Assembly (NCBI GenBank): GCA_004347965.1
Contig: QNVF01000011.1
Span: forward strand, 1 to 35,925
Source: Candidatus Nezhaarchaeota archaeon WYZ-LMO8
GTDB taxonomy: Archaea > Thermoproteota > Methanomethylicia > Nezhaarchaeales > WYZ-LMO8
Direction: 5' to 3'
DNA length: 35,925 bases
The notes under the pieces are model-generated. The model was not told the origin of the DNA. It saw nothing but the letters and a program-made list of their open reading frames with translations, and ran no database searches. Position 1 is the stretch's first letter; every line of letters begins with the position of its first letter. The translations under genes were made by a program, and so were the position numbers. This document shows, one piece after another, positions 12,084 to 24,179 of this stretch.

Positions 12084-12860
12084 TTGTTGATGGGCTTGAG
12101 GATATTTAAAGGGCTTGAAACCGATAATGCGTACTTAGAGTTGAAGACTAGCTTAGCCAACAACGAGTCAGTAATAATAGTTGGAGACTGCGAAGTCGAG
12201 TATTATGGGCGAGCGAGCTCAACATTAACGAGAGGTGAGAGGGTCGTTATGATAAAGCAAGATGGTTCCATCCTGGTCCATAGACCTGAAGGCTACGAGC
12301 CTGTCAATTGGCAGCCACCTGGTTGTTTATTTAAGGTGGATAGCTTGAATGGGCTTCTAAAAATTGTTGCAACTAGACTTAGCCCTCATGAAGTCTTGAC
12401 CATCTCATTCCATAAGGTCTATGTAATGGTGTGTGGAAGACTGTACGATAAAGGCATATTCTCTATGCATGCGAGTGAAGATGAGATGAAGGAAGCCATA
12501 AGGCTAAATCCATCATTGATCGAGGAAGGGCTAAGAATATTAACTTCAGAGAAGGATCTTGGAGAAGCTGGTTACGCAGACTTTGTAGGTGAAGATTCTA
12601 AGGGGAACTTCGTAGTAATAGAAATTAAAAGAGAAGTTGCAGGAGAGGAAGAAGTCTTACAACTTGCTAGGTACGTTAATGAAGCTAAACAAAGAGTTAA
12701 CAGACCAGTTAGAGGGGTGCTTGTTGCTCCATCGCTAAGGAGGAGAGGACAGGTGCTCTTAGAGCAACTGAAACTTGAATTTAAGGCATTAACACCTGAA
12801 AGCTGTAAAAGGTTTTTAAAGAAAGTTCCAAGACTGAGCCTACTCGAGTTCATGGAGTGA
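12084..12860 (+). CDS. nucS: Endonuclease NucS/EndoMS
   Basis: N-terminal CEVEYYGRASSTLTRGERVVMIKQDGSILVHRPEGYEPVNWQPPG and C-terminal nuclease core GYADFVGEDSKGNFVVIEIKR; PIP-like C-terminus LSLLEFME. Confidence 0.92.
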   Translation: MLMGLRIFKGLETDNAYLELKTSLANNESVIIVGDCEVEYYGRASSTLTRGERVVMIKQDGSILVHRPEGYEPVNWQPPGCLFKVDSLNGLLKIVATRLSPHEVLTISFHKVYVMVCGRLYDKGIFSMHASEDEMKEAIRLNPSLIEEGLRILTSEKDLGEAGYADFVGEDSKGNFVVIEIKREVAGEEEVLQLARYVNEAKQRVNRPVRGVLVAPSLRRRGQVLLEQLKLEFKALTPESCKRFLKKVPRLSLLEFME

Positions 12861-14382
12861 GCGTAAATAGCTTTAAGATGACTTTGTTTATTTCTTCCGT
12901 GAATATTGTTGGATACATACCTAGGAAAAGTGATGCTAGAGCCATGACCATTAGTGGTGTAAGAAAACTTAGAGGAGCTTCTTTAACTTCGTTAAGTTGT
13001 GGTGGAGCTTGACCGAAGAGCATTCTCCTTATGGACCAGAGCGAGTAGGCAAACGTTAAGACAGTCGCTATTATTGCCACAATGACCATGAATATCCTGA
13101 AAGCCTCAGCAACTAGCGAGGCAGAGCCTATAGCACCTGTGAAGATCATCCACTCACTTATGAAGCCACTGGTGAAGGGTACTCCCATCAATGTGAAGAA
13201 GCCTATGAACATCATAACAGCTGTGTACGGCATTTTACCCGCTAAGCCTCCCATTTGACTTATGGTCCTCGTACCCACTTGAACCATGAAGACCCCGACT
13301 AAGAGGAATAGTATTGCTTTACCCATGGCGTGAGCTATGTAGTGGAACATGGATCCCGTAGCACCTATTGCTGCTAGGCTCTTGAAACCCATACTTATTG
13401 CTAAGGCTGCAGCACCAAGCCCTAGAAGTATGTAGCCCATCTGACTTATGCTCGAGTAGGCTAGTAATCTCTTGAAGTCGTCTTGACTTAAGGCATTGGC
13501 AGCTCCGTATATCATGGTTATGATGGCTAAGACTATCATGGCAGTAGATATGTACTGTAATGCTGGAGTGTAGAGGAACACTATCCTAATTGTGGCGTAA
13601 GCTGCTAGACCACTCATAGCTGACGAGAGGAGAGCAGTTATTGGTGTTGGAGCTTCAACGTAGGTGTCTGGAAGCCAGCTGTGAAGCGGGAATATGGCCA
13701 TCTTCACGAAGAAGCCTATGAGCATCGCTGAGACTATTGCCGTTAAAATCCCAACGTTAGGGTTTAGCTGCGCTATCTTCTGCGGGATTTCGTATATTTC
13801 GAGAGTTTGAAGATAACCATTGGTTGCAACTATTCCAGCTAAGAAGCAAAGTGCTCCAGCTTCGGTGAATAGGAAGTACTTCAAGGCGACCTTCTCCTTC
13901 TCGCCAGTGCCCCACTCATTTATCAGAGCCCATGAAGCTACAACAGCTATCTCGAAGAAAACGAAGAACACTACAAGGTTTGTAGAGAGGACGAGACCAA
14001 TCATTCCTAAGAAGAACAATTGGTAGAGACTGAAGAAGAGGCCCATGTTCGGCAAGTCCCTCATCAACTTCACGGTGTAGAGGGCTGTGAGGGCTGTAAC
14101 TAATGCTATGGTTAGTGCTACTGGTGAGCTCAAGCCGTCGGCTCTGAAGCCAAACCTCAACACCAAATTGCTGGTTACCACCCAATCGTAAATCTTCTCA
14201 TACGACGACACTAAGCCAGCGAAGATCTTGTACGTTGAAACACTAAAAATCACTATGGAGAGTAACGAGGTTAAGATGGCTATAATGCCGTTCCACCTAC
14301 CTAAGGGCTTGTTGAGGCCCAAAGTCACCAGTGATGCTACTGCTGGTACAATTACTGTGTAGGGAAGTAGCTCCTCTATCAT
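12850..14382 (-). CDS. Complex-I-like antiporter subunit (NuoM/NuoN family)
   Basis: Multi-TM protein with VKMAIFPLHSWLPDTYVEAPTPITALLSS and QDDFKRLLAYSSISQMGYILLGLG. Confidence 0.88.
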   Translation of the reverse strand: MIEELLPYTVIVPAVASLVTLGLNKPLGRWNGIIAILTSLLSIVIFSVSTYKIFAGLVSSYEKIYDWVVTSNLVLRFGFRADGLSSPVALTIALVTALTALYTVKLMRDLPNMGLFFSLYQLFFLGMIGLVLSTNLVVFFVFFEIAVVASWALINEWGTGEKEKVALKYFLFTEAGALCFLAGIVATNGYLQTLEIYEIPQKIAQLNPNVGILTAIVSAMLIGFFVKMAIFPLHSWLPDTYVEAPTPITALLSSAMSGLAAYATIRIVFLYTPALQYISTAMIVLAIITMIYGAANALSQDDFKRLLAYSSISQMGYILLGLGAAALAISMGFKSLAAIGATGSMFHYIAHAMGKAILFLLVGVFMVQVGTRTISQMGGLAGKMPYTAVMMFIGFFTLMGVPFTSGFISEWMIFTGAIGSASLVAEAFRIFMVIVAIIATVLTFAYSLWSIRRMLFGQAPPQLNEVKEAPLSFLTPLMVMALASLFLGMYPTIFTEEINKVILKLFTLTP

Positions 14383-16440
14383 CTACCACAACCCCCCTAG
14401 CTTAAGTAGTATTAAAGCTATGATTATGAGACCCATTAATATGCCTATAATGTTGTAGTTTAAGAAACCTGTCTGTAGCTTCCTAAACTGAGATGCAAAA
14501 CCCACAACACCTGATACAAATCCTGCTAATGCTCGGTCAAAGCCTCCAACCTCGATCCACCTATAGAGACCTCGAGATGCCGACATCAAGGGGTAAGCGA
14601 AGGCGTTGTAGTACATCTTATTTATGAACCACCTCTTGAAGAGGAAAGTGTGAAGTGTGCGTAGCAATAAGCTCTTAGCAACTATAGCTGAGGGGTCTAC
14701 CTTCCTGCTTACATACATGAAGTACGCAGGAATAGCCCCCACAATAAGCATGACTATTGCCAACGGCAACGTTATGATCTGAGGGCTCACAGTTTCAACC
14801 TCCGCTTGCACTGATGGTACCAATGAATGTAAAGCAGCGTATGGAGTCATGCTGGAGAGAGCACGGTGAAGAGCCTCCTCCATCCACCACCCAACAACTC
14901 CTATACCTAGAGAAGCCACGGCTAATATAGCATAGGGCACGTACATTACTGGGCTTGCCTCCTCAATCTTATGGCCTTCGGCCTCGAGCTCCACGATCCT
15001 ATGGCTTTTTTCTCCATGAAACGTTAAGCCCATCATCCTAATAGTGTAAAATACTGTTAGTGCAGCAGTTACTACAGCAAGAACGAATGGACCTAAGAGA
15101 CCTGCTTCCCAGCTTACAGCTAAGACTGTCTCTTTGCTCCAGAAGCCACTGAATGGAGGTACACCTGCTAGTGATAGAGCAGCAAGCCACATCGCCACAT
15201 AAGTCAGGGGCATGTACTTTCGAAGGCCTCCCATGTGGTACATAAATCTAGATTCAACGGCATGTATTATAGCTCCAGCTGAAAGGAATAATGCTGCCTT
15301 AAATATCGCATGGCTCATTAAGTGGAACATTCCTGAAGTTAGCCCTTCAACTAGTCCATGTGCTAATAAACCTCCAGCACCCAACGCCAAGAACATGTAT
15401 CCTATCTGGCTGACAGTTGAATAGGCTAGCACTTTCTTTATCTCCCTAGAAACCATCGCTTGAGTTGCAGCGAGAAAGGCTGTGAAGGCCCCGATCCACG
15501 CAATAATCGTGAAAAATGCCGAAAGCTCTGATATCCTCAATACGTGATAAGCTAGCCAGAATATTGGTAAGACCCTCGCAACTAGGTATACACCTGCTTT
15601 AACCATCGTAGCAGCGTGTATGAGCGCGCTGACAGATGTCGGACCAGCCATGGCATCTGGAAGCCACTCATGAAGTGGGAATTGAGCAGATTTTCCAACT
15701 GGGCCCATGAAGAATAAGATTGCTGCTGGAAGCAGTAGACCAGCCTTGCTTATGGTTGGAGCCCATTGATCAATTCTTTCTAAGAGCTCAGAGTAACTAA
15801 ATGTTCCCGCGAACGCGTAGATAACGAATATCGAGGCCAATAGGCACACGTCACCAATTCTAGTCATTATGAAGGCCTTCATACCTGCATGAGATGGTGG
15901 ATAAGCTTCGTCCCCCTCTCCAACCCAGCACTTTAACCAGTCTTCCTTTGAGTCCCTATACCAGAAGCCTATTAGAGCATAGCTGCAGACACCCACACCC
16001 TCCCAGCCGAAGAACATGAGCAGCATGTTATCTGCCATAACTAGTAGCAGCATGCTGCCGATGAAGAAGTTCATGAAAAACCAGTACCTAGTAAGCCCCG
16101 GCTCTCCATGCATATAACTTAAGGAATAAACCATTATGAGGAAGCTTATCCATGCAACTATGTTGGCCATTATTATGCTTAAAGGATCAACTACGACCCC
16201 CATCTTAACGTTTAGAGAGGGTATCCAGTCAAAGCTCTCGGAATTGAATAGTGGAGTAGCGTTAAATAAGAGAGGTATCATGGTTGAAGCGGATATTGCT
16301 GCAAAAAGAGAAAACAGAACTGCAACGTAGTCTCTAACACGTAGATTAATTTTTGCAAATAGAGGTGTTAGGACGGCTCCAACCATCGGTGAGATCCAGC
16401 AAAGCCAAGCACCAGGATACTCAAGTGACAAGCTCGTCAC
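14383..16440 (-). CDS. nuoL: Complex-I-like antiporter subunit NuoL
   Basis: FFGWEGVGVCSYALIGFWY, GKSAQFPLHEWLPDAMAGPTSVSALIHAATMVKAGVYL, C-terminal lateral-helix/TM region ending QTGFLNYNIIGILMG. Confidence 0.92.
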   Translation of the reverse strand: MTSLSLEYPGAWLCWISPMVGAVLTPLFAKINLRVRDYVAVLFSLFAAISASTMIPLLFNATPLFNSESFDWIPSLNVKMGVVVDPLSIIMANIVAWISFLIMVYSLSYMHGEPGLTRYWFFMNFFIGSMLLLVMADNMLLMFFGWEGVGVCSYALIGFWYRDSKEDWLKCWVGEGDEAYPPSHAGMKAFIMTRIGDVCLLASIFVIYAFAGTFSYSELLERIDQWAPTISKAGLLLPAAILFFMGPVGKSAQFPLHEWLPDAMAGPTSVSALIHAATMVKAGVYLVARVLPIFWLAYHVLRISELSAFFTIIAWIGAFTAFLAATQAMVSREIKKVLAYSTVSQIGYMFLALGAGGLLAHGLVEGLTSGMFHLMSHAIFKAALFLSAGAIIHAVESRFMYHMGGLRKYMPLTYVAMWLAALSLAGVPPFSGFWSKETVLAVSWEAGLLGPFVLAVVTAALTVFYTIRMMGLTFHGEKSHRIVELEAEGHKIEEASPVMYVPYAILAVASLGIGVVGWWMEEALHRALSSMTPYAALHSLVPSVQAEVETVSPQIITLPLAIVMLIVGAIPAYFMYVSRKVDPSAIVAKSLLLRTLHTFLFKRWFINKMYYNAFAYPLMSASRGLYRWIEVGGFDRALAGFVSGVVGFASQFRKLQTGFLNYNIIGILMGLIIIALILLKLGGLW

Positions 16441-16592
16441 CCTTGCGACGCCCTTTTTGAGGCTGTAGAAGCGTATTTAACGTTTACTCACTAATCTACT
16501 TAAAGGCAAACTTCAATCATGATGCTAGGTGTACACTGAGTTAGCGCGATTAGAAGACTGCTGCAATAAGGGTTTGAGAGGATCATGAGTTC

Positions 16593-17885
16593 TCACCCGA
16601 AGAAATCCATAATACTTGCTTGACCTCGACGTTCTTTAGCAGTTACGGAAGAAGCATCAACGTCGAGCACTAATCTGCCGTATACACCGTCGTAGCCCGG
16701 CCTTATAGTGACAAGACCTTCTCTCACCCTTACTATTGCTTCTGCTATTCTGCTTGGGACAACCATTTCGAGATCCTTAGCATTAACATTTAAGAGTACG
16801 TTAAGCTCGTTATCGAAGTTCCTTATTAACTTCATGTACAGCTCCCATACCTGCCCCGAGTACAGCTTGGTCTCCCCTCTAATCTTCATGCACTCAGCTA
16901 TGATCTCTGTTAGTGGTAGAAGCTTCTTGAAGCCTATAGCATTCGGCGGTTTAAATCCTCTTGGTCTGTCGGCGAGCTCTTCAACTCTTTGTTCAACACC
17001 CTTCGTTAGCAGCTTCCCGCACTTGGGGCACCTATTACCCCTTTTAATGGCTTCTTCAGGTGGCATGGAAACCCCGCACTTCCTGTGACCAGTCCAGTGG
17101 TATTTGCCGTAGGCCGGATCCACCTCTATGGTCATTAAGAACTTGGAGGGATTCTTGCTAATTATAGCCTCGATAAGCTCTTTATAAGAGGGCTTCTTTA
17201 AGTTAAAGACGTTAACCTCTCTACCAAGCCTATGAGGGTAGGGACTATGACTATCACTATTACTTAGGAGGGTCAGCCTATCAAGCCATGAAACTCGCCA
17301 GTTCATTTCCGGGTCTGAGCTGAGCCCGGTTTCAAGAGCTTTAATTTTGTGGCTCTTATCTCCATAACACTCTTCAAGGCTATCGACTCCACCTATGGAG
17401 CCGAAGATCGACCACCAAGGAGTCCAAGCGTGAGCAGGAAAGATGAAGATGTTACTGTCAATCTCTAGAAGCATTTCTATTAGTTCAGCGGGATTCATGG
17501 CTAGAACTGGACGACCATCAGCCTCTAAGTCGCAGAGTTTACTGAAGACATCAATTACCTGCTCTGCAACCTCAAAGCTAGGCATTAATACGACGTGATG
17601 TATTCTCCTCTTCTTTCCCTCAACTTCATGTATTGTTCCTATCTCTGTCTGAGCTACGAAGTAAAGATTGGCTTGAGAATTCTTAATCTTGTACAGGCTA
17701 GTTCCAGGAACCTCCTCTAGACTTTCCTTTAATTCCTTAAGCCACAATGGATGAATAACGTCACCGGTTCCAAGGAGGTTAATCCCCTTAATGGGGGCAT
17801 AGGCTGATAGCTCTTTCACACTCATCTTTTCTGACGTGGCTCCACTATACTTCGAGTGTATGTGAAGATCAGCGTATATTATCAA
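16593..17885 (-). CDS. Endonuclease Q (EndoQ), PHP-domain DNA repair nuclease
   Basis: PHP motif YADLHIHSKYSGATSEKMSV, LGTGDVIHPLWL, FPAHAWTPWWSIFGS, SNSDSHSPYPHRLGREVNVF, Zn-site CG...RCPKCGKLLTKGVEQRVEELADRP, C-terminal PIP box QASIMDFFG. Confidence 0.88.
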   Translation of the reverse strand: MIIYADLHIHSKYSGATSEKMSVKELSAYAPIKGINLLGTGDVIHPLWLKELKESLEEVPGTSLYKIKNSQANLYFVAQTEIGTIHEVEGKKRRIHHVVLMPSFEVAEQVIDVFSKLCDLEADGRPVLAMNPAELIEMLLEIDSNIFIFPAHAWTPWWSIFGSIGGVDSLEECYGDKSHKIKALETGLSSDPEMNWRVSWLDRLTLLSNSDSHSPYPHRLGREVNVFNLKKPSYKELIEAIISKNPSKFLMTIEVDPAYGKYHWTGHRKCGVSMPPEEAIKRGNRCPKCGKLLTKGVEQRVEELADRPRGFKPPNAIGFKKLLPLTEIIAECMKIRGETKLYSGQVWELYMKLIRNFDNELNVLLNVNAKDLEMVVPSRIAEAIVRVREGLVTIRPGYDGVYGRLVLDVDASSVTAKERRGQASIMDFFG

Positions 17886-17940
17886 ATAAGGTTACCCAAT
17901 TATACTTGCCTTAAATAATGCTAAGAAAGCTTTTCTGTGT

Positions 17941-19473
17941 TTACGGTAATGGAAGGAGGATTGATGCTGCCTTCTGAGCTACCTCTATTAAAGGCCATGG
18001 ATAGCAGCCAATGGCTACTAGCGCTATCATGAGCAGTACTAGGGGGACTACAATCAATGCTGATACCTCCTTTGATGTCTCAGCCCTAATCCCCTTAGGT
18101 CTTATGACGCACACTTGAAGTAGCCTTAGATAATATGCTGCTGCGAACACACTATTTACAAGCATTAGTGAGGTGACTACGTTCATAAAGGCATCACCAA
18201 CACTATAGCCAGACATTAGCAGCAATAGTTTGCTCACGAAGCCAGCTAGAGGAGGAGCTCCACTTAATGATAGTAAACCTATTGAGAACGATGCCCCCGT
18301 CCACGGCATTGCTCTGCCAATGCCTTGGAGGTCATAGATGTTCCTCGTTTTAGCCCTCGTGATAAATGAGCCAGCTGCAAGGAAGAGGAGACCCTTGCCA
18401 ATGGCATGTGATAATAGATGCATTAAGGCTCCAATAAAGCCCATTAAGCTTGCAGCAATAGCTCCTATGCGTAAGCCATAAGCTGCTACTCCTAGACCAA
18501 ACAGTATGAAACCTATGTTAACAGTGCTCGAGAATGCTAAGAGTCTTTTTACGTCCCTCTGCAATAGCGCCATTATGTTTGCAACCGTCGTAGTTACAAC
18601 AGCGAAGACCGTAAAGAGTACTCCATAGTTAAAGATTAATGGGTTAAAGATCGTGTAGGCGCTCCTCGCGATGGCGTAGATAGCAGCCTTAATTACTAAC
18701 CCCGACAGCATGGCGCTTATTGGGCTCGGAGCGGCTGGATGAGCGTCGGGCAACCAAGTGTGGAAGGGTACTATGGAGGCTGTAACGCCGAACCCGACGA
18801 AGATCAAGGTTAACGTGATGTAGCCGTAGAATGGGTCAACGCTTGACGTAGAGAATATCATTGAGAGGGCATGGAAGTTCAGTGTTCCCGCATAGCCGTA
18901 GAGCAACGCCATGCCCAGCAAAGCCATGAGAGAACCAAGAGAGCTCATCACCAAGTACTTGAAGCCAGCTTCTATAGGCTCCCACCGGTACTTCCTGAAA
19001 GCTACGAGAGAATACGAAGATACGCTCATTAACTCCCAGAAAACGAATAACGTGAAGAAATCTCCAGCAATTGCTACACCAATCATTCCAGCTACGAGCA
19101 GCAACAACATCGTGTAGTACCTATCTAAGCCAGTATCATGTTCCATGTACTTTATGGAGTATAAGGATACAAGTAGACCTAGACCGAGGAATAGTAACAC
19201 CATGAAAATGCTTAATGCATCTACCCTGATTTCAACACCTAATGGTGGTCCAAAGCCTGAAAGTGATGCTACAGCGCCCTCAGTTAGTAGGGCCTTAGGC
19301 ATATCTATTGAAAGTAGAAGGGCTATGAGGAGTCCGAGTGTCGCAAATGCCCCCGTCAAACGCTTGAGCTTTAGTTTTCCTTCAATGTAACCTAGTAGTG
19401 GAGCCACTACAGAGAAAGTAATTAAAGCTATTAAAGGCCTTAAAACAGTCACCAAGTCCACTTCAATTACCAT
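17941..19473 (-). CDS. Complex-I-like antiporter subunit (NuoN/NuoM family)
   Basis: FWELMSVSSYSLVAF, ASIVPFHTWLPDAHPAAPSPISAMLSGLVIKAAIYAIAR, QRDVKRLLAFSSTVNIGFILFGLG. Confidence 0.88.
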   Translation of the reverse strand: MVIEVDLVTVLRPLIALITFSVVAPLLGYIEGKLKLKRLTGAFATLGLLIALLLSIDMPKALLTEGAVASLSGFGPPLGVEIRVDALSIFMVLLFLGLGLLVSLYSIKYMEHDTGLDRYYTMLLLLVAGMIGVAIAGDFFTLFVFWELMSVSSYSLVAFRKYRWEPIEAGFKYLVMSSLGSLMALLGMALLYGYAGTLNFHALSMIFSTSSVDPFYGYITLTLIFVGFGVTASIVPFHTWLPDAHPAAPSPISAMLSGLVIKAAIYAIARSAYTIFNPLIFNYGVLFTVFAVVTTTVANIMALLQRDVKRLLAFSSTVNIGFILFGLGVAAYGLRIGAIAASLMGFIGALMHLLSHAIGKGLLFLAAGSFITRAKTRNIYDLQGIGRAMPWTGASFSIGLLSLSGAPPLAGFVSKLLLLMSGYSVGDAFMNVVTSLMLVNSVFAAAYYLRLLQVCVIRPKGIRAETSKEVSALIVVPLVLLMIALVAIGCYPWPLIEVAQKAASILLPLP

Positions 19474-19476
19474 AGC

Positions 19477-19803
19477 TTACCACCTTAACCTCCTAAGCTT
19501 CTTTAAGTCAAGCGTCTTGTAGTGTTGATGTGCATCAACAACCAAGGAAAGAGCTAATGCAGCTACAATACCTCCAATAGCTATCGAGATTATCACGAAT
19601 GTCTGCGCTAGGGGGTCTATGAAGTTAGCTGGGTAAGTCCTCATCCAACCAAGTGACATGAAAGCTGTGTTGACCGCTATCGTTACTATCTCCAAGCCTA
19701 TGACGGTCTTTATCATGTTCCTCTTAGAGACGAGACAGTAAAAGCCTATCGCTAGTAAGATTAGAGAAAGGGCCAAGTAAGATTGAGGTGGAAGGTATTC
19801 CAT
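19477..19803 (-). CDS. nuoK: NADH-quinone oxidoreductase subunit K-like protein
   Basis: YLALSLILLAIGFYCLVSKRNMIKTVIGLEIVTIAVNTAFM ... DPLAQTFVIISIAIGGIVAALALSLVV. Confidence 0.92.
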   Translation of the reverse strand: MEYLPPQSYLALSLILLAIGFYCLVSKRNMIKTVIGLEIVTIAVNTAFMSLGWMRTYPANFIDPLAQTFVIISIAIGGIVAALALSLVVDAHQHYKTLDLKKLRRLRW

Positions 19804-19806
19804 AGC

Positions 19807-20178
19807 TCACACCTCCTCCTCTTCAATGAGCTCCTCAATGGGAGCTTCAATAACCGCCTCCTCCTCTTCGATAACCTCCTTTGGAGGCTCTATCCTAAAT
19901 AGTGCTGTCACCCCGCATGCGGCCCCCAGTATGAGGAAGGCTTGAATTATAATGTCAATTGCTCTATAGCTCCATAACGTTGTGCCCAACCTCAAATCAG
20001 CCAAGAAGTCCTTGTCGTAAGCTTGTGAGACATTACCCCACCAATTTACTCCAAGCTCTCTAAGACCTTGACTTAACGCTAGAGCATTCGTATAAGGTTG
20101 TGGTATTGGCATAAAGTATAGGATTGCTAAGACTGCTAATGCTAGTATTGCACCACATGCAGCAAGCTCTTTACTCAT
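19807..20178 (-). CDS. NuoJ-like subunit, C-terminal part (split NuoJ) with acidic C-terminal tail
   Basis: Two TM segments in operon position of NuoJ C-terminal half; tail EVIEEEEAVIEAPIEELIEEEEV. Confidence 0.7.
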   Translation of the reverse strand: MSKELAACGAILALAVLAILYFMPIPQPYTNALALSQGLRELGVNWWGNVSQAYDKDFLADLRLGTTLWSYRAIDIIIQAFLILGAACGVTALFRIEPPKEVIEEEEAVIEAPIEELIEEEEV

Positions 20179-20411
20179 GCCACACGCCTCCTTCTAATTG
20201 TATGTACAGTTACCGCTAAAAGTACAGAGACCGCACCTGCATAGATTAGAAGTTGAAATATCGATGCGTAGAATGCACCCATTACGTAGTAGATTATAGC
20301 TATGAGGACGCACATAACAGAGAATGCTATGATGCACTTCACTAAGTCCTTGGATTCAACAGCAAGCAAGGCCATTAGGATTGTTAGGAATGCTAATACG
20401 ATATCCCACAA
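20175..20411 (-). CDS. NuoJ-like subunit, N-terminal part (split NuoJ)
   Basis: AFYASIFQLLIYAGAVSVLLAVTVH matches the conserved NuoJ TM3 signature; overlaps the downstream ORF by 4 nt. Confidence 0.85.
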   Translation of the reverse strand: MWDIVLAFLTILMALLAVESKDLVKCIIAFSVMCVLIAIIYYVMGAFYASIFQLLIYAGAVSVLLAVTVHTIRRRRVA

Positions 20412-20743
20412 GGCTCAACCACCTCGATCCTCCTATTGTAGGAAGCTAGCTCATAGAACTGAGTCATCTTAATAGCTTTTCGAGGACAAGATTCAACGCA
20501 TTGTGAGCAGAAGGTACATCTAGCTAAGTAATATCTAGGCTTCTTATTCCCACTCGGTAAGGTTACGAGTTCAAGTGCAGCTGCCGGACAATCTTTAACG
20601 CACAGACCGCAACCAACACACCGATTGTAATCTATTTCGACCTTGCCCCTATAGTCTGAAGGGACATCTCTCTTTTCAAAGGGATACAGCAAGGTAGCTC
20701 TCTTCTGAAAAGCGGTCTTCAACACATCACCAAATATGGGCAT
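20393..20743 (-). CDS. nuoI: NuoI-like 2x[4Fe-4S] ferredoxin subunit
   Basis: CVGCGLCVKDCPAAALE and CTFCSQCVESCPRKAIKMT. Confidence 0.92.
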   Translation of the reverse strand: MPIFGDVLKTAFQKRATLLYPFEKRDVPSDYRGKVEIDYNRCVGCGLCVKDCPAAALELVTLPSGNKKPRYYLARCTFCSQCVESCPRKAIKMTQFYELASYNRRIEVVEPCGISY

Positions 20744-20752
20744 TTCACCACC

Positions 20753-21748
20753 TCAAATAACTATCAATCTAGGCACCATAACAGCTAAGAGCAATTGAAG
20801 TATTGAGATGGGTACCAGGTACTTCCACGCGAAGTTCACCATCTGATCTATCCTAAGTCTAGACATAGCTGCCCTTATTATCGTAAGTATCAAGAGGACG
20901 ATGATGGACTTGATTACGAAGATTATTGTTGATGAAAGAGCACCTACGAAGCCTGGAAGTATTGGTTGAGGGCCTCCTAAGAATAATGTAGCTCCCAAAC
21001 CACATAGAAAGGCAAGCTCTATGTCCTTTGCAAGCCTTATGAGGGCAAGCTTCTTCCCTGAGTACTCGGTAAGCCAACCTGCAACTATCTCTGTCTCCGC
21101 TTCAGGTATATCAAATGGAACTCTCTCAAGTTCTGCTTGAGCTGCCAGCAGAAATATCGCAAAGCCTAGTGCTTGAATACCGAGAATGCTCCACCAACTG
21201 CTTTGAGTCTCTACTATACTTTTGATTTGTAAAGAGCCTTCAGTCTGAATCGTTACAGCAGCTGCTCCTAAAACTGAGGCCACGAGAGGTATTTCGTAGC
21301 CTAGTAGCTGCAATACTGATCTTTCAGCCCCCACTCCTGGGTATCTACTTGCAGACGAGAAGCCTGCTAAGAAGACTAGTATCACGAAGAAGGTTAGTAT
21401 GACTGTTACAACGATGAGATCCCCTTCAAACGATAGTACACCTTGAGCCCCGCACACTGGCAAGAACAGAACAGCAAATAAGCTTAGAGCTAAGGCGAAT
21501 ACCGGGATTGAAGAGAATAGTGGTCTATCGGCACCTTCGGGAACTATGTCCTCCTTAGCCATCAGCTTAACGAAATCAGCAAAGGGTTGGAACAAGCCCC
21601 AAGGCCCAGCGTACAAGGGACCTACTCTGTTTTGAAGCTTTGCGTAAAACTTTCTATCTATCCACTCGAAGAATAAACCGAGAACTGCGAAGAATAGGAA
21701 ACCTGGGAAAACTATTATTCGAAGAAGGTCAATGAGGTCTTGAATCAT
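20753..21748 (-). CDS. nuoH: NuoH-like membrane subunit
   Basis: DRKFYAKLQNRVGPLYAGPWGLFQPFADFVKLMAKEDIVP, AELERVPFDIPEAETEIVAGWLTEYSGKKLALIRLAKDIEL. Confidence 0.94.
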   Translation of the reverse strand: MIQDLIDLLRIIVFPGFLFFAVLGLFFEWIDRKFYAKLQNRVGPLYAGPWGLFQPFADFVKLMAKEDIVPEGADRPLFSSIPVFALALSLFAVLFLPVCGAQGVLSFEGDLIVVTVILTFFVILVFLAGFSSASRYPGVGAERSVLQLLGYEIPLVASVLGAAAVTIQTEGSLQIKSIVETQSSWWSILGIQALGFAIFLLAAQAELERVPFDIPEAETEIVAGWLTEYSGKKLALIRLAKDIELAFLCGLGATLFLGGPQPILPGFVGALSSTIIFVIKSIIVLLILTIIRAAMSRLRIDQMVNFAWKYLVPISILQLLLAVMVPRLIVI

Positions 21749-21751
21749 GAG

Positions 21752-22930
21752 TTAATCCCTCCAGTACATACGCTTTATTTGGCTGAAAGTCCAAACCCAA
21801 CTCTTACCGCTTGAGACGTCTATAAACCTTATAGCTCTATCAGTACAGCTTAAGCATGGATCTATGCTAGCAAAGGTTATAGGTACGTCAGCTATGTTAA
21901 CCACGTAATCGCCCCTAGACGTAAGCATTACTGGAATTGAGAGGAGGTTTGCCAGCGTTGGTGCCCTCACCTTCCACCTAAAAGGTCTCTCCGTGCCATT
22001 AGCTCTAACGTAGTGAATCACTTCACCCCTTGGAGCCTCAGTTCTTCCGACGCCCTCTCCAGTTGGCACAACTCTTGGTACTCTAATCCTTACAGGTCCA
22101 GAAGGCATCCTCTTTATAGCTTCTCTAACTATACTTATCGACTCAAGAGTTTCGTCAATCCTAACCAGAAGCCTAGCCGTTACGTCGCAAGTATCATATG
22201 TAACAACCCTGAACGGTATCTCATCATAGGCTGCATGTGGATCGTCAGCCCTTACGTCGAAAGGTACTCCTGATGCTCTTGCTGTTGGACCCACAGCGCA
22301 TAGAGCTATTGCATCCTCCTTCCTTAAAATGCCGACGCCATCGCACCTCATCCTTATAGTTCTCTCATCTAAGCACATCTTCTTGTACTTCCTCACTTTC
22401 TCATCTAGTAAGTCCATGACCTTCAAGATCCTCTCTGCCTTCTCCTGCGGTATATCCCTCCTCACTCCACCTATAGTCATTAGAGCGTACGTGACCCTAT
22501 TACCGGTGAAGTCCTCTATAACGTCCATTACCATCTCTCTATCTCTCCAAACGTACATGAAGAGTGTGTCAAAGCCTATTTCGTGAGCTGCAACTCCAAG
22601 CCATAGCAGGTGGCTATGTATCCTATTTAGCTCAAGACCTATCGTCCTTATGTAGTCAGCTCTCTTAGGTATCTCCTTACCTATTATGTCCTCGGTTGCT
22701 TGAGTTAGACAGAAGGCATGAACTATTCCGCATATACCGCATATTCTCTCAGCTATGTAGAGGTTTTGAATGTACGTTTGGTACTCACCAGCCTTCTCTA
22801 TGCCTCTGTGATTGTAACCAATCCTAAGCTTAGCTCCAACCACATGCTCTCCATCCACATAGCACGTTATGTTTAGGGGCTCCTTTATTGCAGGGTGTTG
22901 AGGACCTATTGGGATGTCAACTACGCTCAT
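21752..22930 (-). CDS. Group-4 [NiFe]-hydrogenase-like large subunit (NuoD homologue with intact NiFe ligand motifs)
   Basis: GPQHPAIKEPLNI, L1 motif ERICGICGIVHAF, L2 motif SIDPCLSCTDR; complex-I/hydrogenase 49-kDa family fold. Confidence 0.9.
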   Translation of the reverse strand: MSVVDIPIGPQHPAIKEPLNITCYVDGEHVVGAKLRIGYNHRGIEKAGEYQTYIQNLYIAERICGICGIVHAFCLTQATEDIIGKEIPKRADYIRTIGLELNRIHSHLLWLGVAAHEIGFDTLFMYVWRDREMVMDVIEDFTGNRVTYALMTIGGVRRDIPQEKAERILKVMDLLDEKVRKYKKMCLDERTIRMRCDGVGILRKEDAIALCAVGPTARASGVPFDVRADDPHAAYDEIPFRVVTYDTCDVTARLLVRIDETLESISIVREAIKRMPSGPVRIRVPRVVPTGEGVGRTEAPRGEVIHYVRANGTERPFRWKVRAPTLANLLSIPVMLTSRGDYVVNIADVPITFASIDPCLSCTDRAIRFIDVSSGKSWVWTFSQIKRMYWRD

Positions 22931-22933
22931 ATC

Positions 22934-23410
22934 TCAATCCCTCTCCTTAGTTATCTTGCTAAGAAGTGTTTGAAGATCTACATCCTTCCTAAGTGGATAG
23001 AGACCTTCAGGCCATTCATCTGGTAATTCTAGGTGGCTAAGATCTGGATGGCCGTTAATGTTGATTCCAAACATCTCGTGAACTTCTTTTTCGTAGAAAA
23101 AGGCCCCTGGGATTACGTCGCTTATCGTATCTATTTCTGGATTGTCTTTAGGAATTAACCCTCTAACCGATATCACCACACCTTTGAATGAGAAGTGAGG
23201 TATAACTTCGAATCTATCTACTGCATCAACACCAGATATTGTGGATACGTGTGTCACACCAATATTATCTCTCAAAAACCTAATAACATCCTTATACGTT
23301 GACCTATCAACAGTTATGAATATCCTCCTAGCCCTCTGAATCTTCGCTTCAAGTATTTTCTCTCCAAACTTCTCTTTGAGCTTATTTACGATCTCTTCTT
23401 CAAGAGTCAA
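22934..23410 (-). CDS. nuoC: NuoC-like 30-kDa subunit
   Basis: GAFFYEKEVHEMFGININGHPDLSHLELPDEWPEGLYPLRKD. Confidence 0.92.
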   Translation of the reverse strand: MTLEEEIVNKLKEKFGEKILEAKIQRARRIFITVDRSTYKDVIRFLRDNIGVTHVSTISGVDAVDRFEVIPHFSFKGVVISVRGLIPKDNPEIDTISDVIPGAFFYEKEVHEMFGININGHPDLSHLELPDEWPEGLYPLRKDVDLQTLLSKITKERD

Positions 23411-23844
23411 GAGGCCCCCCCTCTAAGTTTCTCTATGAGTTTAACGACACCGTTTATTATTGCTTCAGGCTTGGGAGGACACCCCATAACATAGACGTCA
23501 ACAGGTATCACGTTATCGAGCCCAGGATAGACGTTGTAGCAATTTCTGAAAGCTCCACTACTAGCACAGCAATTGCCAACAGCCATGACGAATTTAGGTT
23601 CAGGCATTTGCTCGTAGACCCTCTTGAGTCTCTTCTCAACTTGCTTAGTCACTGGACCTGTGACTATCAATATGTCAGCATGTCTTGGCGAGCCAACAAG
23701 TCTAATTCCAAACCTCTCAACGTCATATCTAGGAGTGAGCGCAGCTACTACCTCAATGTCACAACCATTACATGCACCAGTATTGAAGTGTATTACCCAA
23801 GGACTTCTAATTCTAGCCCAGTCAACTAGCCCCAACCTTACCAC
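23407..23844 (-). CDS. NuoB / [NiFe]-hydrogenase small-subunit-like protein
   Basis: HFNTGACNGCDIEVVAALTPRYDVERFGI (hydrogenase-type CxxC), GNCCASSGAF, VDVYVMGCPPKPEAIINGV. Confidence 0.92.
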   Translation of the reverse strand: MVRLGLVDWARIRSPWVIHFNTGACNGCDIEVVAALTPRYDVERFGIRLVGSPRHADILIVTGPVTKQVEKRLKRVYEQMPEPKFVMAVGNCCASSGAFRNCYNVYPGLDNVIPVDVYVMGCPPKPEAIINGVVKLIEKLRGGAS

Positions 23845-24179
23845 CTTCTTCTAGCTAAGAGAAGTATAGCCTCTAAAGCCACAAGCGCGTATATTGCAAC
23901 CAAGAAAGATGTTTGAGTGAGCATAGTTGGTGACAATATTGCAAACGCTATGATCAGAGCCAATGTATCAAATACTAAGAAGAGGGTTGCGAAGTTTATT
24001 AAGTGAATCGTTACGGGAACTATTTCAGCAGGAACATCCTCACCACATGCATAGGGTTTAAGCTTATCAGAGCTTGGCTTTGGTCTAGGAGCAATCTTAG
24101 CGCCCCACGCATAAGTTAATGCAGAGACTATGAGGGCGATAATGAATGAAATTATCGGGATTGTGACTGTCGAGCTCAT
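23838..24179 (-). CDS. nuoA: NuoA-like subunit
   Basis: KLKPYACGEDVPAEIVPVTIHLINFATLFLVFDTLALIIAFA; three TM segments; first gene of the operon. Confidence 0.85.
   Translation of the reverse strand: MSSTVTIPIISFIIALIVSALTYAWGAKIAPRPKPSSDKLKPYACGEDVPAEIVPVTIHLINFATLFLVFDTLALIIAFAILSPTMLTQTSFLVAIYALVALEAILLLARRRW

Follow-up and report, generated by a model that had tools for sequence, protein, structure and literature searches.

A probable Hfo-type [NiFe] hydrogenase on a complex I-like subunit set in a Nezhaarchaeia-like archaeon

Hfo, an 11-subunit Fpo-like [NiFe] hydrogenase of subgroup 4g, combines an Fpo-like gene order with intact L1 and L2 motifs (Loh, Hervé & Brune 2021, PMC7886697). 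It was reported in Bathyarchaeia, and nearly identical clusters are known from Ca. Methanomethylicus and Pyrodictium delaneyi. The enzyme was proposed to link hydrogenases with complex I and to draw on the proton-motive force (pmf) for ferredoxin reduction by H2; as of that report, none of the 4g enzymes had been biochemically characterised (PMC7886697). Hfo also occurs in Bathyarchaeum tardum (PMC10477458). For Nezhaarchaeia, an Ehg cluster has been reported (Kohtz 2022, PMC9723716).

Here we describe a locus that adds to the Hfo enzymes. The window, meaning the whole stretch of 35,925 nucleotides that we analysed, is contig C3 (GC 43.6%) of a 1.35 Mb genome that is 93% complete. We read its hydrogenase operon as encoding an energy-converting [NiFe] hydrogenase of the Hfo type (4g-like), from a Nezhaarchaeia-like methanogen, that would couple ferredoxin/H2 to H+ movement, with a probability of roughly 0.88. 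The operon runs from 24179 to 12850 on the minus strand and comprises 13 ORFs, with NuoA first, NuoM last and an endonuclease Q (EndoQ) gene included. An ORF check of the window located all of them on the minus strand, among them the EndoQ gene that the sequence-only reading of this DNA had not mentioned, in the order NuoA-B-C-D-H-I, J1-J2 (a split NuoJ), K, N-like antiporter, EndoQ, L, M:

23838..24179, minus strand: NuoA-like, 113 aa (PF00507, 27 bits; KPYACGE loop; Asp71, E. coli D79, retained)
23407..23844, minus strand: NuoB/MbhJ-like small subunit (PF01058, 114 bits; CxxC at C25 and C28, plus C92 and C122)
22934..23410, minus strand: NuoC/FpoC-like (PF00329, 103 bits; FpoC profile, 100 bits)
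21752..22930, minus strand: NuoD homologue, catalytic large subunit (PF00346, 240 bits; PF00374, 51 bits)
20753..21748, minus strand: NuoH-like membrane anchor (PF00146, 297 bits)
20393..20743, minus strand: NuoI-like electron-input subunit, 2x[4Fe-4S] (Fer4_7, 61 bits)
20175..20411, minus strand: J1, N-terminal part of NuoJ, MbhD-like (PF00499, 35 bits; MbhD, 24 bits; YAGA motif retained)
19807..20178, minus strand: J2, C-terminal part of NuoJ, MbhE-like (without a Pfam match; one weak BLAST match)
19477..19803, minus strand: NuoK-like (PF00420, 73 bits)
17941..19473, minus strand: N-like antiporter, MbhH/MrpD-type (PF00361, 207 bits; MbhH, 314 bits)
16593..17885, minus strand: EndoQ, not a hydrogenase part (PfuEndoQ, 226 bits; C-terminal QASIMDFFG, PIP-box-like)
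14383..16440, minus strand: NuoL with lateral-helix C-terminus (TIGR01974, 526 bits against a cut-off of 407)
12850..14382, minus strand: NuoM (TIGR01972, 293 bits against a cut-off of 264)

The complete 11-part set, A to D and H to N, is encoded in one locus, with J as two genes. From NuoA through the N-like antiporter, neighbours overlap or lie at most 9 bases apart; 55 bases separate the N-like antiporter from EndoQ and 152 separate EndoQ from NuoL, which directly adjoins NuoM. Profiles from Pfam and NCBIfam support A to D, H, I, J1, K and the three antiporters, bearing out the sequence-only reading for NuoA, C, H, I and K and for a NuoL whose C-terminus contains QTGFLNY. J2, which has neither a Pfam nor a PDB match, is assigned by its position and by one weak BLAST match (E 8e-5) to the MbhE-like portion of the genome's own Mrp-linked cluster, and the split NuoJ probably corresponds to the MbhD/MbhE arrangement. 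Two further NuoM/N-like antiporters had also been proposed; one is NuoM, above its cut-off, and the other (17941-19473) scores higher with MbhH (314 bits) than with NuoM or NuoN (about 131 and 112 bits).

The NuoD homologue retains the ligands of a NiFe centre. Its L1 motif RICGICGIVH (residues 62-71, at 22747-22718) and L2 motif DPCLSCTDR (residues 357-365, at 21862-21836) lie exactly where the cysteine pairs had been noticed, and both satisfy the group-4 patterns, C[GS][ILV]C for L1 and [DE][PL]CxxC for L2. The four cysteines are invariant in an alignment of 17 homologues, which excludes chance as an explanation for the motifs. The NuoB homologue likewise has the hydrogenase-type CNGC that had been read at 23772-23761. 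Among PDB chains, the large subunit scores best with Mbh (300 bits), then FHL HycE (266) and Thermus Nqo4 (225), and the best match of the small subunit is Mbh MbhJ (186 bits). Complex I and Fpo are recognised by the presence of Nqo4 H38 and Y87 together with loss of the NiFe cysteines; the NuoD homologue shows neither feature, and the alignment pairs the two quinone ligands with K16 and G65. An AlphaFold (AF2) model of the protein (pLDDT 78, pTM 0.82) finds its best PDB fold in FHL HycE, although this fold by itself does not discriminate hydrogenases from complex I.

Maturation genes accompany the NiFe site. The NuoD homologue extends 27 aa beyond DPCLSCTDR, the point at which the solved Mbh chain stops exactly, and this tail fits a precursor that would be cut by a HycI-type protease. 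The search for hyp and protease genes that the sequence-only reading had called for recovered HypC, HypD, HypF, HypE in two pieces and two HycI-family proteases; HypA and HypB were not identified within the genome regions read. Both HypE pieces (G000:C48:1-504 and G000:C78:15-479) lie at contig ends, and the split is an assembly break, not gene loss. Some Hfo large subunits of the same class (L058, L065 and L070) end a few residues past L2 and are tail-less, for example DPCFSCTSRNEVVKSS, which suggests that these may mature independently of a protease.

Phylogeny separates the window enzyme from complex I at its catalytic subunit. In a tree of 91 D proteins, 20 cysteine-less Nuo-type rows stand against 71 hydrogenase-side rows with support of 100 on each side, and the window protein falls on the hydrogenase side, outside the Nuo clade. 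The phylogenetic check suggested earlier finds the NiFe site intact on alignment and the large subunit apart from Nuo. NuoH joins archaeal Hfo and Nuo in one clade (99.9), apart from the other group-4 rows sampled, which are Mrp-linked, FHL-like and bacterial; this subunit places Hfo nearest true complex I. An origin of Nuo inside Hfo gave p-AU 0.345 when tested on NuoH. Archaeal Nuo rows also sit among Hfo rows for NuoL, in a quick tree with long branches that calls for caution, and for NuoB the number of columns is too low for a tree to separate Hfo from other hydrogenases. On these grounds, the idea that the locus resembles a hydrogenase-to-complex I transition state survives in part: the NuoH and NuoL trees agree with the published link between Hfo and complex I and fall short of proving such a state.

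The locus matches Hfo more fully than the other known systems we compared. It has the same 11 subunits, the same L1 and L2 NiFe motifs, neither NuoEFG nor FpoFO, and the same proposed function, and described Hfo carriers include probable relatives of the host (Methanomethylicus). Membership in HydDB subgroup 4g is suggested by synteny and relatives. It differs from described Hfo in its host, a Nezhaarchaeia-like lineage with Mcr and Mtr, in the N-like antiporter, which is encoded between K and L and carries Thr where a TM7 Lys would be expected, and in the embedded EndoQ gene. With Mbh (4d, Pyrococcus furiosus, 6CFW) it shares the nearest solved large and small subunits, an MbhH-like antiporter and the split NuoJ; Mbh itself combines an Mrp-type Na+ module with a single large antiporter subunit, whereas the window adds NuoL and NuoM and lacks the Mrp module. 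The complex I/Fpo core (Nuo, Nqo, Fpo) has the A, C, H, K, L and M architecture and channel residues in common with it; unlike that core, the window pairs NiFe cysteines with missing quinone ligands in D and has no NADH or F420 input module. Ehg of Nezhaarchaeia is a group-4 hydrogenase of the same lineage but is tied to Hdr/FdhF and a single HyfB-like antiporter. The sequence-only reading had noted that many group-4 hydrogenases lack NuoA and a three-antiporter set, which holds for the classical types; the combination is on record under the name Hfo, and many Thermoproteota have it. The architecture was described and named in 2021, and the window is a further Hfo; we have not met this host lineage, the TM7 substitution pattern or the Nuo/Hfo hybrids described below in the literature, as far as we compared it.

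Two other identities for the complex were weighed and rejected. A true Nuo/Fpo-type quinone or methanophenazine oxidoreductase, with relic cysteines and no NiFe cofactor, would account for a NuoL/M-like membrane arm with NuoA and NuoC and for top NCBIfam scores to NuoD (332 bits) and FpoD (293 bits). Those NCBIfam matches, however, include no Ech, Mbh or Hfo large-subunit model, and the PDB comparison favours Mbh and FHL. Cysteines invariant across deep homologues, substituted quinone ligands, a retained C-terminal pro-peptide, maturation genes in the genome and a D protein outside the Nuo clade make relic cysteines very improbable. A Na+-pumping hydrogenase working in the mode of P. furiosus Mbh (4d) has a comparably slight chance. 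Mbh is the nearest solved structure for D, B and the N-like antiporter, and NuoJ is split as MbhD/MbhE, but the operon lacks the MrpB/C/E/F/G-type module that the C23 cluster of the same genome has, NuoL and NuoM are full and above curated cut-offs, and NuoH groups with Hfo/Nuo, not with the Mrp-linked rows. The original proposal of a group-4 [NiFe] hydrogenase on a complex I chassis is upheld by the NiFe motifs, the position in the D tree, the maturation genes and the lack of NuoF.

Most of the complex I channel residues persist in the membrane arm. NuoL retains the canonical channel residues and NuoM retains E144, K227 and E410; across the two, almost every canonical channel residue checked is in place, and those that differ in NuoM lie at positions where archaeal Nuo diverges too. 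NuoH retains the E-channel and acidic-loop residues D74, E152, E216, E218 and E220. The N-like antiporter keeps E147, K262 and K415, and its TM7 lysine is replaced by Thr231 (FGVTASIVPFHTW). Threonine occupies this position in 5/5 members of the window's family, 2/2 of a sister family and 8 of family f4 in the same class; the residue there is Gln, Val or Glu in part of the other archaeal Hfo, and Lys in some Hfo. All 10 Nuo-type rows other than hybrid L194, and all bacterial rows sampled, have Lys, and the substitution requires at least three changes on the tree. NuoK retains E38 (E. coli E36) and has V80 in place of its second Glu (E72), which is missing in 14/14 Hfo compared and present in 8/9 Nuo.

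These substitutions bear on how many ions the arm moves. One refinement holds that the three-antiporter arm is partly disconnected, the N-like subunit relaying conformational change while fewer ions are translocated. It draws on the replaced TM7 lysine and the missing second Glu in NuoK, and it would suit the narrow potential gap between ferredoxin and H2. K262 and K415 are retained, however, and some Hfo keep the lysine. Proton pumping persists in the K217A mutant of E. coli NuoN (PMC13073174), so lost pumping is not to be assumed for the Thr231 antiporter, although an older study reported a loss of function (PMC3046159). We consider this refinement possible but unlikely. More speculative still is a re-geared pump in one clade of Hfo from methane-forming and related Thermoproteota, in which the missing TM7 Lys and NuoK Glu would lower the ion/electron ratio and make the arm reversible across the small potential step between ferredoxin and H2, so that Hfo would take the place of Eha/Ehb as the hydrogenase that reduces ferredoxin in Nezhaarchaeia. 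With a complex I subunit set and a hydrogenase site, Hfo offers a natural model both for the origin of complex I and for how many ions a complex I arm has to move, and the residue variation that the locus points to in the proximal antiporter would open the ion-per-electron question to testing.

The preferred Hfo-type reading carries a candidate mechanism. If made and active, as we infer, the enzyme would pass electrons reversibly between ferredoxin, the two [4Fe-4S] clusters of NuoI, the NuoB cluster and the NiFe centre in NuoD, where protons and H2 would interconvert (2H+ + 2e- <-> H2) at the former quinone site. NuoH/A/J/K would link catalysis conformationally to the three antiporter-like subunits, which would move H+, Na+ being less likely, giving reversible ferredoxin:H+ oxidoreduction coupled to H+ translocation. 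The ferredoxin/H2 step spans about 0.1-0.2 V, insufficient for complex I's four protons per two electrons at ordinary membrane potentials; therefore either fewer ions are pumped or the enzyme runs in reverse, with pmf driving ferredoxin reduction. Both the energetics and the methanogenic setting argue for reduction of ferredoxin by H2 with the pmf as driving force. In a CO2-reducing methanogen this would serve an anaplerotic role like that of Eha/Ehb during growth on H2/CO2, and a surplus of reduced ferredoxin would lead to H2 evolution. An electron partner other than ferredoxin could also serve. As the sequence-only reading had noted, neither NuoEFG nor FpoFO, nor any FpoF-like gene, was found in the operon; NuoF is absent from the genome in a family search whose control was positive in 9/14 genomes, and an FrhB-like gene adjoins the separate C23 hydrogenase.

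The host is probably a Nezhaarchaeia methanogen, as indicated by McrA, MtrA and an Ehg-type cluster. It encodes McrB-G-A, MtrA and a group 3b-like hydrogenase. Its second group-4 hydrogenase, L007 (G000:C34:26000-41433), lies in an HdrC-HdrB-FdhF-HdrA-MvhD-hydrogenase-HyfB cluster that matches Ehg of Nezhaarchaeia, at a separate locus and on a separate branch of the D tree from the window enzyme. A third, L008 (G000:C23:36000-49261), is Mrp-linked and has the FrhB-like neighbour. Given L007 and L008, the window hydrogenase is perhaps redundant or condition-specific. With this locus, Hfo reaches into a probable Nezhaarchaeia methanogen, for which it suggests a possible source of reduced ferredoxin.

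Hfo-type loci are widespread in the phylum. A D homologue at E <= 1e-30 occurs in 358 of 398 genomes, a figure that includes true NuoD and other group-4 enzymes and is not an Hfo count. Many of the 40 loci examined have A-B-C-D-H-I-J-K-N-L-M with both cysteine pairs, and others have B-C-D-I only or an Mrp set. Synteny shows the same 11-part set across many Thermoproteota families. Named carriers of the full set include several Bathyarchaeota MAGs, with related loci in Baldrarchaeum and Jordarchaeia. In bacterial and other relatives, among them Omnitrophota, Elusimicrobia, Aminicenantes and Halorhabdus, the catalytic module comes with antiporter sets of different composition.

Some Bathyarchaeia-class genomes carry hybrid complexes (L194 on G019:C6, L238 on G410:C2, and L242-L245). 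In these, cysteine-less Nuo-type B, D and H occur together with an N-like antiporter and a NuoL of the Hfo type. The D, B and H proteins of L194 belong to Nuo clades, and its L (99) and N (97) nest within Hfo clades. Gene scores repeat the pattern in relatives, which makes an assembly artefact unlikely.

Two DNA-repair nucleases lie at the window operon, one flanking and one interrupting it. A NucS/EndoMS endonuclease gene (12084-12860) runs convergently towards NuoM and shares 11 bases with the 3' end of that gene. EndoQ, the interrupting gene, recurs in further Hfo loci (L041-L044, L071, L074 and L079); it separates N from L in the family of the window, and I from J1 in two further families belonging to the same class.
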